From Pseudomonadota bacterium (GTDB taxonomy: Bacteria; Desulfobacterota; Desulfobacteria; Desulfobacterales; RPRI01), in assembly GCA_018823005.1 (NCBI GenBank), contig JAHJJB010000234.1:1-35150 (forward strand): a DNA stretch of 35,150 bases, in the 5' to 3' direction. The notes under the pieces are model-generated. The model did no database searches, was not told where the DNA came from, and saw only the letters and a list, made by a program, of their open reading frames with translations. Below, in pieces: positions 7,425 through 35,150 of this stretch (its first letter is position 1; every line of letters begins with the position of its first letter). The translations under genes were made by a program, and so were the position numbers.

Positions 7425-7547
7425 TTGAACCGCAATAGCGAACGCATTCCCCGTAGCTTGCTACGGGGTTAGTGAGCGAATCAAAAACAGAAAGAAAGTC
7501 CTTACGGTCGAAGATTCTCCGTAGCCTGCTACGGGGAGCTTCAATTT
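7425..7547 (+). repeat. REP-like palindromic elements, copy B (two hairpins)
   Basis: Two related hairpins lie between uvrA and pdxA. The first, CCCCGTAGC-TT-GCTACGGGG (7449-7468), is perfect. The second, CTCCGTAGC-CT-GCTACGGGG (7517-7536), has one wobble pair. The outer edges read TTGAACCGCAATAGCGAACG and GGGGAGCTTCAATTT, as in copy A. They may act as terminators or mRNA stabilisers. Confidence 0.75.
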
Positions 7548-13106: not shown

Positions 13107-14744
13107 TCATCGCCTTTGGCAGATCGACTCTATGGAATGTTGCATTTTTTCAATAAGAGGGGGCAGGGTTGATTCATCATCAGCTGAAATCGGGATGCAG
13201 CCAAAAATCCGGCATAACTTTTCGGTAGTTTCTTTTCCGGCAAGATCCTGTTTGTTGAAAACGCGGATCATCGATATTTTGTCTAAATTCAAGTCCGAAA
13301 GTATTCCTTCAACAGATTCTATCTGGTCCTCAAATCTCGGATTGCTGATGTCTATTACATGAAGCAGGAGATCGGCATTGTTTAATTCTTCAAGTGTTGC
13401 GCGGAAAGCAACAAGCAGGTCCTTCGGGATGTTTTTAATAAAACCGACGGTATCGGTTATTATTACCTCGGTATCTTTAGGGAATTTCAAACGCCTGCTC
13501 GACGGATCAAGGGTTGCAAAGAGTCTTTTTTCAGCAAGCACATTGCTTTTTGTCAGAGTATTAAGAAGAGTGGATTTGCCCGCGTTTGTGTAGCCTATTA
13601 TTGAAATAACAGGCAAATCCTTTTTGCCGCGTTTTGCCCTTTGCTGATGCCTGTGCTGTATTACCAGTGAAAGCGCTTTTTCCAGCTGGTTTATACGGTT
13701 GCGTGCAAGCCTGCGGTTTAGCTCAAGCTTTGTTTCTCCGGGGCCTCTTCCACCTATGCCGCCGGTTAGGCGGGACATGGCTGTATTTTTAGTTACAAGG
13801 CGGGGGAGCATGTATTTCAGCTGGGCGAGTTCCACCTGCAGCTTTCCTTCTTTTGTCTGTGCCCGCTGGGCGAAAATGTCCAGTATAAGCTGGGTCCTGT
13901 CTATGATTTTTATATCTGTTTTGTCCGTTATAGACCTTATCTGGGATGAATTCAGCTCCTGGTCAAAAACCAACATGGACGCACCCCTTTGAAGGGCAAG
14001 AAGAGAGAGTTCCTCAAGTTTTCCAGGCCCAATATAAAATTTTGGATCGGCCTTGGTTCTGTACTGGATAAAGCTTTCTATAATTTCTATTCCTCCCGAC
14101 CCGGCAAGTTCTTTCAATTCATCCATCGAGTCTGAAGCCTCATTCTTGGAATCTGTTGAAACACTCACAAGGATAGCCCTTTCCATGCACCGTCCTGAAA
14201 AACGGACAGGCTTGGACTGTGCAAGTTCCGATTCAATGGCCTGAATCAGTTCAAGACATCCCGTATCAAGCTGGCCGGGTTTTATGGGCTGAAGAATACG
14301 GTATGGTTCGCCATCAAGGCTTTTGGGAAGTATATGCCCTACATGGATTTCATAGGGCTGCCCGTCATTTGATGATGTTATTGCTGCCATCATGTCGAGC
14401 TTTAGAAGAGTAAGGTCGGTGATATCGTCCCTGGAGAGAGGTTCGTTTTTCATGTGGACGTGTATGCACCTTAAACCCTTAAGCCTGTCAGGCGCTGTCC
14501 TGTATTCGCTTAAATCGGGTATTAAAATGCGCCTCTGGTCCCCAACGATAACGTTTGTTATCCTGCCCTGGCGGTCAATAAGAAGGCCTAACTGGCGGCG
14601 TATTTCCATTGCGAGTATGCACAGTTCGCGGGCTATCTCGGGGGTTATAAGAAATTCGGGAGGAGTACGGCGGCGGTACAGATTCTCAAGTCTCTTTATA
14701 TGACTGGCTTTCAGGCCGCCGGTATTTCCGGAAAGTTTTCTCAT
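13107..14744 (-). CDS. hflX: Ribosome-associated GTPase HflX
   Basis: HflX is a GTPase that binds the 50S subunit and splits stalled or hibernating ribosomes. The protein has the HflX linker motif GGRGPGETKLELNRR, then the G domain: G1 GYTNAGKST, G2/G3 with DTVGFIKNIPKDL, and G4 NKQD. A long N-terminal extension of about 190 residues precedes the usual HflX domain, giving 545 residues against 426 in E. coli; such extended forms are common outside the Enterobacteria. The region upstream of its ATG, 14745-14812, leads into the 218-bp inverted-repeat element, so that element could affect hflX expression. Confidence 0.95.
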   Translation of the reverse strand: MRKLSGNTGGLKASHIKRLENLYRRRTPPEFLITPEIARELCILAMEIRRQLGLLIDRQGRITNVIVGDQRRILIPDLSEYRTAPDRLKGLRCIHVHMKNEPLSRDDITDLTLLKLDMMAAITSSNDGQPYEIHVGHILPKSLDGEPYRILQPIKPGQLDTGCLELIQAIESELAQSKPVRFSGRCMERAILVSVSTDSKNEASDSMDELKELAGSGGIEIIESFIQYRTKADPKFYIGPGKLEELSLLALQRGASMLVFDQELNSSQIRSITDKTDIKIIDRTQLILDIFAQRAQTKEGKLQVELAQLKYMLPRLVTKNTAMSRLTGGIGGRGPGETKLELNRRLARNRINQLEKALSLVIQHRHQQRAKRGKKDLPVISIIGYTNAGKSTLLNTLTKSNVLAEKRLFATLDPSSRRLKFPKDTEVIITDTVGFIKNIPKDLLVAFRATLEELNNADLLLHVIDISNPRFEDQIESVEGILSDLNLDKISMIRVFNKQDLAGKETTEKLCRIFGCIPISADDESTLPPLIEKMQHSIESICQRR

Positions 14745-14812
14745 TTCAGATTATTATACCTTAAAATATATAGCTATTATCAGAATAATGTTCCGATCGG
14801 CTATTTCAAGTT

Positions 14813-15030
14813 GTTTGGGTATGGGTGCGTATGCGAACCGCAGAAAATTTGTCACATGTCTTCGAGGACGCCCCCAAATAGATAATAAAGATTGTACAGG
14901 CGGATACAATAAACGGCTTCGTGAGAAAAACCATTTTTGGGCTGCACGGATTTCATGGATGCGGATATGCCGCCGTTGACGAAGGGCAGGGCATTATTTC
15001 TGCGGATCGCATACGCACCCATACCCAAAC
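14813..15030. mobile_element. 218-bp MITE-like element with 34-bp terminal inverted repeats, copy 1
   Basis: The ends GTTTGGGTATGGGTGCGTAT... and its reverse complement form 34-bp terminal inverted repeats (14813-14846 and 14997-15030) with a single mismatch. The inside is not a transposase. A second copy of exactly the same length lies at 34917-35134 and aligns without gaps, with long identical blocks such as GGATTTCATGGATGCGGATA. Clear target-site duplications are not seen. It fills most of the 318-base gap between hflX and dnaB. A 73-residue minus-strand ORF across it is probably incidental. Confidence 0.8.
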
Positions 15031-15062
15031 AGAATAGATTTATGATATTTACTGTAATCCTT

Positions 15063-16436
15063 CTACATACCATAGATCTCTTTTGCCTTGTCTTTAAAGC
15101 AGGTATAGGAACCCTGGAAAGTAAGTACGACTTCGCCGGTTGGGCCGTTTCTCTGCTTTCTCAACAGAATTTCTGCGGTATTTTTTTTCGGGTTGTCCTC
15201 ATTTTTGTTGTATATTTCGTCTCTGTAAATAAATGCAACAACATCAGCATCCTGCTCGAGTGCGCCAGACTCTCTTAAATCAGCAAGCTGCGGTCTTTTG
15301 TCGGTTCGATCCTCGAGCTTTCTGTTCAGCTGGGAGAGAGCAATAACGGGGATTTTCAGTTCTTTGGCAAGGGCTTTTAAAGATCTTGACATTTCGGCTA
15401 TCTCCAGATCCCTCCGTTCAGCTGAAAAAGAGCTTTTCATAAGCTGCAGATAATCAATGATTACAAGGCCAAGCCCTTTGTTCATTTTGAGCCTTCGTGC
15501 TTTTGCCCTGATTTCCATGGAAGAGATGCTGGGTGAATCGTCTATGAATATGGGAGCCTGAGACAGGGTTGCAGCCGCGTCTGTCAGATTGACCCAGTCG
15601 GCATCGCTTAGAAAACCTCCTCTTAGCCGGGAGGAATCGACCCTTGCCTCCGAGCAGAGCATCCTGAGAGAAAGCTGCTCTTTAGACATTTCAAGGGAAA
15701 AGATAGCAACCGGAACATTTGATTTAACAGCAGCGTTTCTTGCGATATTCAATGCGAAAGCGGTTTTTCCCATACCGGGACGGGCAGCAATTATGATCAG
15801 GTCCGAATTTTGGAAGCCTGAAGTAAGTGCATCAAAATCGGTAAAACCGCTTTCAACTCCGGTTACAAGGGATTTTTTCCCCTGCCGTTCTTCAAGGGCG
15901 TCAAAGTTGTCATCTATAATATCCTTTAATGGATAAAAAGCCTGTTTGATTTTTTTTTCGGATATTTCAAAAATTGAACTCTGGGCAAAATCGAGAATTT
16001 CGTTCAGGTTGCCGCTGTCTTCAAAACATTTACTAACAATAGCAGTTGCCTTTTCGATAAGGCGTCTCAGACAGGCCTTTTCATAGACCAGGCGGGCGTA
16101 ATGAGTTGCGTTTGTAGCAAGTGGAATATCAAGGAATCTTGCAAGATATGCCGCGCCGCCGACTTCTTCAATCTGGCCCTGTTCTTTCAGTGCATTGACT
16201 AATGTGACAAGGTCAACCGGTTCGTTTTTGTTAAAGAGATCAAGAATTGATGAGTAGATCTTCTGGTGGGCTATCTTATAAAAATCATTTGGAGTAAGAA
16301 CTTCGATAACTTCAAGCAAAGCATTATTGTCAATCAAAATGGCGCTGAATAAAGATTCCTCGGCCTCAATGCTCTGAGGCGGAACTTTTAACAGGTAGGA
16401 TGTCTCTTTTTCACTTTGATGTTTGGTTCTTGCCAT
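15063..16436 (-). CDS. dnaB: Replicative DNA helicase DnaB
   Basis: DnaB is the hexameric helicase that unwinds the replication fork. The N-terminal domain (PPQSIEAEESLFSAILIDN) is followed by the RecA-like motor with Walker A ARPGMGKTAF, VAIFSLEMSKEQL, Walker B LVIIDYLQLM, and LSQLNRKLEDRTDKRPQLADLRESGALEQDAD. At 457 residues it is full length and shows no intein. It is the last gene of the rpsF-rpsR-DUF2232-rplI-dnaB group, a widely conserved order, but a 314-base repeat-bearing gap separates it from rplI. No Shine-Dalgarno is obvious. Confidence 0.97.
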   Translation of the reverse strand: MARTKHQSEKETSYLLKVPPQSIEAEESLFSAILIDNNALLEVIEVLTPNDFYKIAHQKIYSSILDLFNKNEPVDLVTLVNALKEQGQIEEVGGAAYLARFLDIPLATNATHYARLVYEKACLRRLIEKATAIVSKCFEDSGNLNEILDFAQSSIFEISEKKIKQAFYPLKDIIDDNFDALEERQGKKSLVTGVESGFTDFDALTSGFQNSDLIIIAARPGMGKTAFALNIARNAAVKSNVPVAIFSLEMSKEQLSLRMLCSEARVDSSRLRGGFLSDADWVNLTDAAATLSQAPIFIDDSPSISSMEIRAKARRLKMNKGLGLVIIDYLQLMKSSFSAERRDLEIAEMSRSLKALAKELKIPVIALSQLNRKLEDRTDKRPQLADLRESGALEQDADVVAFIYRDEIYNKNEDNPKKNTAEILLRKQRNGPTGEVVLTFQGSYTCFKDKAKEIYGM

Positions 16437-29577: not shown

Positions 29578-30372
29578 ATGAGCAAGTATCGTACATTCAT
29601 TTTTGAAGAGGTCGAACCTTGTGTTGGGCTCGTCACCCTGAACAGGCCGGATAAGCTGAACGCGATCAACGTGGAGATGCTTGATGATTTCAATGAATTA
29701 TTTGCCACTCTGACCAGAGATGATGCCATACGGGTCCTTATAATAACCGGGGCAGGGCGCGGATTCTGCGCCGGGGCTGACCTGAACGAAGCTTTGTCTT
29801 ATAAGGATGCAGAGGCTCTGTCCGATCCGGAGAAATATCTCAGGCTGGCCCAGGAGCGCTTTTCTGCTCTCATCCTTGGGCTAAGGCGGATCCCGCAGCC
29901 TGTGATTGCCGCTGTTAACGGTCCTGCGGCGGGCGGAGGGTTTTCGATTGCATTGGCCAGTGATATCAGGGTGGCGTCACCCGAAGCCTATTTTGTCGCC
30001 TCTTTTGCCAATATCGGCCTGACCGGAGGAGAATTGGGCACTTCCTATTTCCTCCCACGTCTTATCGGCCTTGCGAGAGGTGCGGAAATTCTCTATACTG
30101 GAAGAAAGGTGAACGCGGAGGAGGCCGAACGAATGGGGCTGGTCAATCAGGTGGTGCCGAAGGAGGTCCTTCTGAAAACGGCTCTTTCCTGTGCCGGGTT
30201 GATGATAGCCAAGGGAGTCGGGGCGCTCAAACTGACAAAGAGGGTTCTGGATCAGAATATTGATGCTCCTTCACTCGAGGCTGCGGTCAACCTTGAAAAC
30301 CGTAACCAGACTATCATGGTATTTTCGGGCGAGTTCTTTAAGCTCATCAAGCCGTTCTTCAAAGGGGTGTGA
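29578..30372 (+). CDS. Crotonase-family protein lacking both canonical catalytic Glu
   Basis: This 264-residue protein has the crotonase N terminus (TLNRPDKLNAIN), CoA-binding GFCAGADLNEAL and GPAAGGGFSIALASDI. Both catalytic glutamates of rat enoyl-CoA hydratase are changed: Ser at the first (GGGFSIALASD) and Phe at the second (VASFANIGLT). A Glu in the nearby GGELGTSYFLPRLIG could take over, as in some isomerase-like members. The reaction is therefore open. AGGAGAACGAA precedes the ATG. It is separated from the main catabolic operon by the convergent GGDEF gene, so it probably has its own promoter. Confidence 0.88.
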   Translation: MSKYRTFIFEEVEPCVGLVTLNRPDKLNAINVEMLDDFNELFATLTRDDAIRVLIITGAGRGFCAGADLNEALSYKDAEALSDPEKYLRLAQERFSALILGLRRIPQPVIAAVNGPAAGGGFSIALASDIRVASPEAYFVASFANIGLTGGELGTSYFLPRLIGLARGAEILYTGRKVNAEEAERMGLVNQVVPKEVLLKTALSCAGLMIAKGVGALKLTKRVLDQNIDAPSLEAAVNLENRNQTIMVFSGEFFKLIKPFFKGV

Positions 30373-34775: not shown

Positions 34776-34833
34776 CATTTGAAACGAAACAACGAGAACA
34801 TAAACCGCTGCTTGCGGCGGGGTGCTTCAAATG
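34776..34833 (+). repeat. REP-like palindromic element, copy C
   Basis: The unit begins with CATTTGAA and ends with TTCAAATG, a perfect 8-bp inverted pair, around a CCGCTGCTTGCGGCGG core. It is collinear with copies A and B (GAAACGAAACAACGAG ... GGTGCTTCAA). Confidence 0.72.
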
Positions 34834-34916
34834 TCGATACGTATGATTGTGATCCGGAAAAAGTATTGAGGTATGAGGATGCCTCAGATATATAGTAATT
34901 CTCATAAATATGTTCC

Positions 34917-35134
34917 GTTTGGGTATGGGTGCGTATGCGATCCGCAGAAAAACTTTTCTTAAGGCTTCGACACGCCCCCATATGGTCGATAAATATTGTA
35001 AAGGCGGATACAATAAACGGCTCCGTGAGCAAGGCCCTTTTGGGGCTGCTTGGATTTCATGGATGCGGATATGCCGCCGTTTACGAAGGGCATGGAATTA
35101 TTTCTGCGGTTCGCATACGCACCCATACCCAAAC
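34917..35134. mobile_element. 218-bp MITE-like element, copy 2
   Basis: Terminal inverted repeats at 34917-34950 and 35101-35134 match those of copy 1, at exactly the same total length. As in copy 1, one internal base in the arms differs. It lies next to a decayed regulator gene and a REP-like unit. The minus-strand ORF across it shares the frame and the LGMGAYA...PFVNGGISASMKS stretch with copy 1. Confidence 0.8.
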
Positions 35135-35150
35135 TATTCAACGATATCCA

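Follow-up and report, generated by a model that had tools for sequence, protein, structure and literature searches.

An IS630-type MITE of Desulfobacterales and its conserved core, a predicted pseudoknot probably shared by several transposon types

Introduction

The 35,150-nt contig JAHJJB010000234.1 (assembly GCA_018823005.1) from a member of the order Desulfobacterales, referred to here as the window, contains the same inverted-repeat sequence twice. This raises the question of whether the sequence is a mobile element, a structured RNA or a combination of the two. The original prediction described a 218-bp unit bounded by 34-bp terminal inverted repeats, with neither a transposase nor a clear target duplication, and took the equal length of the diverged copies as a sign of constraint or of a defined mobile unit, MITE-like or structured-RNA in kind.

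Extent of the element

The two copies, at 14813–15030 and 34917–35134, have the predicted length of 218 bp and a gap-free alignment. Their internal divergence was also confirmed and corresponds to an identity of 87% (BLAST). The arms of the inverted repeat are 34 nt long in both copies; they are 97% complementary in copy 1 and 92% complementary over 39 nt in copy 2. Compared with shuffled sequences, the fold reaches z = −8.2 for copy 1 and z = −9.9 for copy 2, which indicates that the hairpin is not due to chance.

The 218-bp repeat is real, but its ends were misplaced. The similarity between the copies runs past 218 bp. One flank adds a 26-bp outer end and a spacer of 18–20 bp, the opposite flank a 26-bp outer end. 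The whole element consists of 284 bp between two TA dinucleotides (14769–15056), and the 34-bp repeats form its inner hairpin (Table 1). Once the true outer ends are used, the target duplication that had seemed absent is found as the TA dinucleotide. The right side of copy 2 is lost at the end of the contig. The equal length that had suggested constraint or a defined mobile unit holds for the two window copies but not for all others, which measure 216–218 bp or are deletion derivatives of about 98–110 bp. Shells without the inner hairpin also exist. A second dispersed palindromic repeat, of the GCTGCTTGCAGCGGGGAGCTTCAA type, is present in the window at 1387–1419, 7514–7546 and 34800–34832. In relatives, a sequence related to it lies within some of the cores or elements (L053, L065, L089, L221).

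Table 1. Positions of the two element copies, their parts and the genes next to copy 1 in the window
Feature	Position	Strand	Evidence or remark
HflX-type ribosome-binding GTPase, neighbour of copy 1	13107..14744	-	Pfam GTP-bdg_N, GTP-bdg_M, MMR_HSR1
TA target-site duplication, left	14769..14770	.	at the empty G004 site the flank matches overlap by 2 bp (1879–1880)
Outer end A, 26 bp including TA, consensus TATAGYGATTGTCAGAATAATGTTCC	14769..14794	+	conserved among copies; IS end in L141 and L213
MITE copy 1, complete, 284 bp	14771..15054	+	conserved outer ends; comparison of filled and empty sites with G004 and G006
Asymmetric spacer beside end A	14795..14812	+	confined to this side among the copies read
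Inner hairpin arm, left, copy 1 (34-bp repeat of the original prediction)	14813..14846	+	
Conserved core, copy 1	14858..14991	+	covariance model R2, 104.5 bits
Helix P2, 5′ strand	14875..14880	+	partner 14964–14969; 4 of 6 pairs form in copy 1
Helix P1, 5′ strand GGCGG	14899..14903	+	partner 14970–14974 CCGCC; crosses P2
3′ strands of P2 (14964–14969) and P1 (14970–14974), contiguous	14964..14974	+	
Inner hairpin arm, right, copy 1	14997..15030	+	
Outer end B, 26 bp including TA, consensus TATAGTAAATGTCATAAATATGTTCC	15031..15056	-	matches the other end of the IS
TA target-site duplication, right	15055..15056	.	same G004 overlap and alignment
Replicative helicase DnaB, neighbour of copy 1	15063..16436	-	Pfam DnaB, DnaB_C
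Outer end B, copy 2, at the left side (right side in copy 1)	34891..34916	+	
MITE copy 2, incomplete on the right at the contig end	34893..35150	+	core opposite relative to ends A/B
Inner hairpin arm, left, copy 2	34917..34950	+	
Conserved core, copy 2	34962..35095	+	R2, 99.8 bits
Inner hairpin arm, right, copy 2	35101..35134	+	
A-side spacer of copy 2, truncated	35135..35150	+	L011, minus strand

Copies in the genome and insertion site

The genome to which the window belongs (G000) comprises 2.65 Mb in 280 contigs, and its assembly is 87% complete. The BLAST search of G000 returned about a dozen full-length and many partial copies. The pattern of the 23-nt inner repeat has 65 matches in this genome, and the pattern of the outer ends has 68. 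The element thus exists in many dispersed copies without a transposase of its own. A large share of the copies is cut at contig ends, as is expected because the repeat breaks the assembly; the element fragments the assemblies of these genomes.

The insertion site of copy 1 is empty in the sister genomes G004 and G006. The 1.9-kb query around copy 1 matched these genomes with identities of 90–95% and 90–91%, respectively. The matches of the left and right flanks overlap in G004 by exactly two bases, and the empty site reads CCTTATAATC-TA-ATCC, while the filled site has TA on either side. The empty site in G006 reads CA instead of TA. Without the element, dnaB and the gene of the HflX-type GTPase, which lie on the same strand, are about 34 bp apart. 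Almost all distinct sites (56 of 57) are intergenic, and no clear preference for the strand of the neighbouring genes is seen (24 versus 18). Another TA-flanked palindromic repeat (TATAGTGTC...TTTCCGGATGGACACTA) is frequent near these elements (L084, L113, L125). A related end, TAAAGCAACTGCCAGAATAATGTTCCGATTGCAGC, with the extended common flank GTTATAATATTA occurs in L118 (322–347, 2988–3013) and L119 (106–131); the genomes are G005 and G007.

Relationship to the IS630 family

The pattern of the outer ends was scanned over 84,980 GTDB species genomes, which yielded 86 stretches. Nearly all of them are labelled Desulfobacterales, Desulfobacteria or Deltaproteobacteria; two are labelled otherwise, L221 as "Proteobacteria" and L232 as "Zixiibacteriota". 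A complete insertion sequence with the same ends was found in L213 (CP070768.1, Desulfobacterales bin239), where the two ends, 1200 bp apart, enclose an ORF of 341 aa. Its product matches the NCBIfam IS630 transposase model NF033545 with 213.7 bits (cut-off 100) and also Pfam DDE_3. The 3′ end of a close relative is present in L141, from the genus member G002. Both transposases end in IGTLF-stop within the terminal repeat. On the reverse strand of end A in copy 1, this C-terminus of the IS630 transposase, IGTLF-stop, has been preserved. These shared codons imply that end A derives from the 3′ end of the transposase gene. The insertion sequence of L213, presumably of the type of the autonomous partner, resembles the MITE in both terminal sequences and in the TA flanks. 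It differs in its length of 1.2 kb, its intact transposase and the lack of the inner hairpin and core, whereas the MITE keeps only the last transposase codons.

The IS630-type outer ends together with the TA duplication identify the 284-bp outer element as a non-autonomous IS630-family (Tc1/mariner-type) MITE that inserts at TA. Its mobility is settled. The MITE-like part of the original prediction is thus borne out by the TA duplication, the empty site, the ends shared with a complete insertion sequence and the dozens of copies. The original prediction had also regarded ends of a named IS family as an argument against a new unit. The outer element does have such ends, those of IS630, but they do not cover the interior, as its core is common to elements with unrelated ends.

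An IS630-type transposase would mobilise the MITE in trans by recognising the outer 26-bp ends. No IS630 transposase (PF13358, NF033545) was found in the G000 assembly; this assembly being incomplete, the gene may have been lost from the genome or missed there. None of the lone outer ends in relatives led to a complete insertion sequence, and most IS630-like matches in the genus lack these ends. L157 belongs to another transposase type. The 1.2-kb element at L065 (228–1412, G004:C515) has similar inner repeats and, inside similar ends, two adjacent ORFs that resemble an antitoxin of the Phd/YefM type and a toxin of the YafQ/RelE type, below the Pfam cut-offs. A different repeat takes the place of the A end there, and the toxin-antitoxin-like pair is thus not assigned to this MITE. 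MITEs with the same IS630 ends and unrelated interiors with long inner inverted repeats are present in other Desulfobacterales (L172, L175, L181, L196, L227). This indicates that the nested-hairpin design recurs without the core found here.

Distribution of the core and its carriers

The core of about 130 nt recurs in several families of Desulfobacterota with 16–94 copies per genome. A first model, built on sequence only from 12 units, finds the core in other families of the order. The second model, R2, was built on 48 cores. It detected the core in 6 of 148 genera of a class-wide draw, which is a patchy spread. With up to 150 candidates scored in each genome, the numbers of R2 core matches are 94 in G024, 69 in G206, 31 each in G000 and G133, 23 in G002, 19 in G001 and 16 in G088. 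A phylum-wide draw added G525, a genome of the same phylum from outside the order, with at least 8 copies and E-values down to 1e-8. The G525 copies contain the same blocks ACGCCCCC, ACAGGCAGAGA, TGGGGCTG and TGCTGCCGTTG within a very long inverted repeat. A weak R2 match on the minus strand of the window (29868–29942; 13 bits, E 0.048) is probably due to chance.

The element had no match in the plasmids, phages and viral contigs searched, and Rfam gave no match at threshold, by gathering score or by E-value. A protein-coding core was considered and discarded, since the copies differ by indels whose lengths are not multiples of three, nor does any ORF follow the element.

Outer ends and hairpin arms vary by lineage, and only the core survives between lineages. 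Already within the genus, the same core is found between different arms and different ends. Inside a given genome, core and arms are conserved to about the same degree, the core not clearly more. The carriers of the window genus have IS630-type ends with TA. The f30 carriers are about 313 bp long and have the ends TTACTCCGGCAA between TA dinucleotides, and many copies in the f16 genomes start with GGTCGGGGAGTTT. The ends also separate GGTCGGGGAG-, GAGAGCTTTG- and GTAACTTCTCA-ended carriers, the last being those of G525, which are flanked by 8-bp duplications. These are exact in L418 and L420 and contain one mismatch in L417 and L426 and two in L422; lengths of 7 or 9 bp do not fit. An 8-bp target duplication is not IS630-like. 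It assigns the G525 carriers to a different transposon type, which means that the core does not depend on a single transposase. The core predates its carrier, and by sequence comparison the interior appears to be a separate module carried as cargo by several transposon types.

Fold, covariation and inversion of the core

The original prediction had proposed that the consensus be folded and inspected for covariation. Two helices that covary and cross each other, P1 and P2, were found in the core, which predicts a pseudoknot; the arms covary as well. On alignment A5 (40 sequences including G525), P1 and P2 are paired in 86.6% of the cells, and this falls to 33–38% when the pairing is slid by one column. 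The number of double-changed cells is 77 versus 30 in shuffles, and none of 500 shuffles reaches it; such shuffle counts ignore the relatedness of the sequences and are not probabilities, and the helices were chosen on the same data. P2 is 77% paired overall. A similar result was obtained for P1, P2 and a third hairpin, P4, on alignment A4 (48 sequences). The helix P3 is not claimed, as its pairing reaches only 72% and it is in competition with P4. The inverted repeat closing the core is 33–51 bp long. Across 12 units, 93.6% of the arm cells pair, 23 of 33 pairs have changed on both sides, and 0 of 500 shuffles reach the score. GU exceeds AC by 67 to 15 in P4, with few independent events, and by 53 to 34 in the arms; these counts lean towards an RNA of the plus strand but rest on few events.

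The core occurs in both orientations relative to ends A and B in each lineage tested, including f30 and two f16 types. Among the full copies of G000, five are AB, five are BA and one has B at both ends. These counts come from reading the copies, the automatic labels missing some A ends. The window contains one copy of each arrangement, AB for copy 1 and BA for copy 2, so the inner unit is opposite relative to the outer ends and 14997–15056 matches 34891–34950 as an inverted repeat of 60 nt.

Template switching of DNA polymerase between the arms of an inverted repeat has been described to homogenise the arms and to invert the spacer (PMC8604942). Such switching most likely keeps the arms of each copy complementary and flips the core. 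This mechanism would account for the flips as well as for arms that are perfect and specific to each lineage. It would also produce covariation of the arms in the absence of selection, and the arms therefore do not enter the case for an RNA. The helices P1 and P2 belong to the core and not to the arms.

Function of the core

Taken together, we consider it probable that the element is an IS630-type MITE inserting at TA and mobilised in trans, whose interior is a module with a pseudoknot core, carried as cargo by several transposon types and kept for its fold. We infer that the core works either as structured RNA or as single-stranded DNA. It would be retained for an effect of its fold, most likely that of a structured RNA read from its plus strand. 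The structured-RNA part of the original prediction thus stands as a serious possibility. The element shows neither a conserved promoter nor a conserved terminator. Together with the lack of a strand bias relative to genes and of a core clearly better conserved than the arms within genomes, this weakens the reading of the core as a dedicated RNA gene. As judged from the sequences, a structured RNA is most likely, a single-strand DNA site comes next and neutral cargo comes last, none of them being proven.

The core and hairpin could instead be a single-strand DNA site of recombination or replication, similar to attC or to the subterminal hairpins of IS200/IS605, which inserts itself into MITEs and is flipped or moved by a recombinase of the host or the element. 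A long perfect hairpin with a conserved folded centre, found in both orientations inside the shell and in carriers of different transposon types, would suit such a site, as would carrier shells without the module (L055, L127, L133). The empty shells are equally explicable as products of hairpin deletion, however, and no module was found outside a transposon-like shell among the loci read, and we regard this explanation as unlikely.

Ranked behind it, and likewise doubtful, is an ordinary IS630 MITE with a neutral interior, in which template switching alone keeps the arms perfect and the core has no function. Covariation of the arms and inversion of the core are both expected from template switching without selection (PMC8604942, PMC8794818). 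Within most genomes the core does not evolve more slowly than the arms, and the missing strand bias would fit as well. Neutral filler does not readily account for a core that remains recognisable by the same conserved blocks across families whose arms and outer ends share nothing, that moves with at least two transposon types, and whose helices P1 and P2 change in a compensatory manner across lineages. A family of structured-RNA genes with immobile repeats, to which the strong fold and covariation would point, is highly improbable given the empty sites with exact TA, the 8-bp duplications in G525 and the IS630 ends, and is refuted for the window copy by the empty sites in G004 and G006.

Comparison with known elements and implications

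The outer element is closest to RUP, the IS630-linked MITE of Streptococcus pneumoniae, which is also short, non-autonomous, intergenic and present in many copies, with TA as target and IS630-like ends (PMC2229807). RUP is 107 bp long, compared with 284 bp here, and has no reported signature of structure or function. Unlike RUP, the element described here encloses another inverted repeat on its inside, and this surrounds a conserved core that is also carried by other transposon types. The Correia/NEMIS repeats of Neisseria are also TA-flanked MITEs with longer and shorter forms; their transcript forms a long stem-loop, and a role of RNase III has been reported for NEMIS (PMC2229807). By description, the core with crossing helices is the feature added here. 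REP/REPIN and attC-like hairpin DNAs are dispersed hairpin units of bacterial genomes. The present element would differ from these by its outer terminal inverted repeats, its target duplication and its conserved core of about 130 nt. Neither Rfam nor the open-licence literature yielded a folded core that is invertible, shared and moves between transposon types; novelty is provisional, as the literature search was limited to open-licence papers. The outer element is an addition to a known kind, and the folded core moving between transposon types is provisionally considered undescribed.

The usual view of a bacterial MITE is that of a shortened insertion sequence whose middle part carries no meaning. 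In the present case, conservation between lineages is higher in the middle than at the ends. The presence of this middle part in carriers that leave 2-bp and 8-bp duplications implies that it was gained or kept independently of the transposase. The element therefore offers a testable case of a module that helps MITEs or their hosts. It is also a natural experiment in which the upkeep of perfect inverted repeats, and the flipping of DNA by them, can be studied. The chances are about even that an undescribed class of structured nucleic-acid modules, in which a long, invertible stem encloses a core with crossing helices, spreads across Desulfobacterota as cargo of unrelated transposons, with nearly 100 copies in a genome, and is selected for its fold, probably as RNA. 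If the core is an RNA, it would represent a new class with a high copy number in sulfate reducers.
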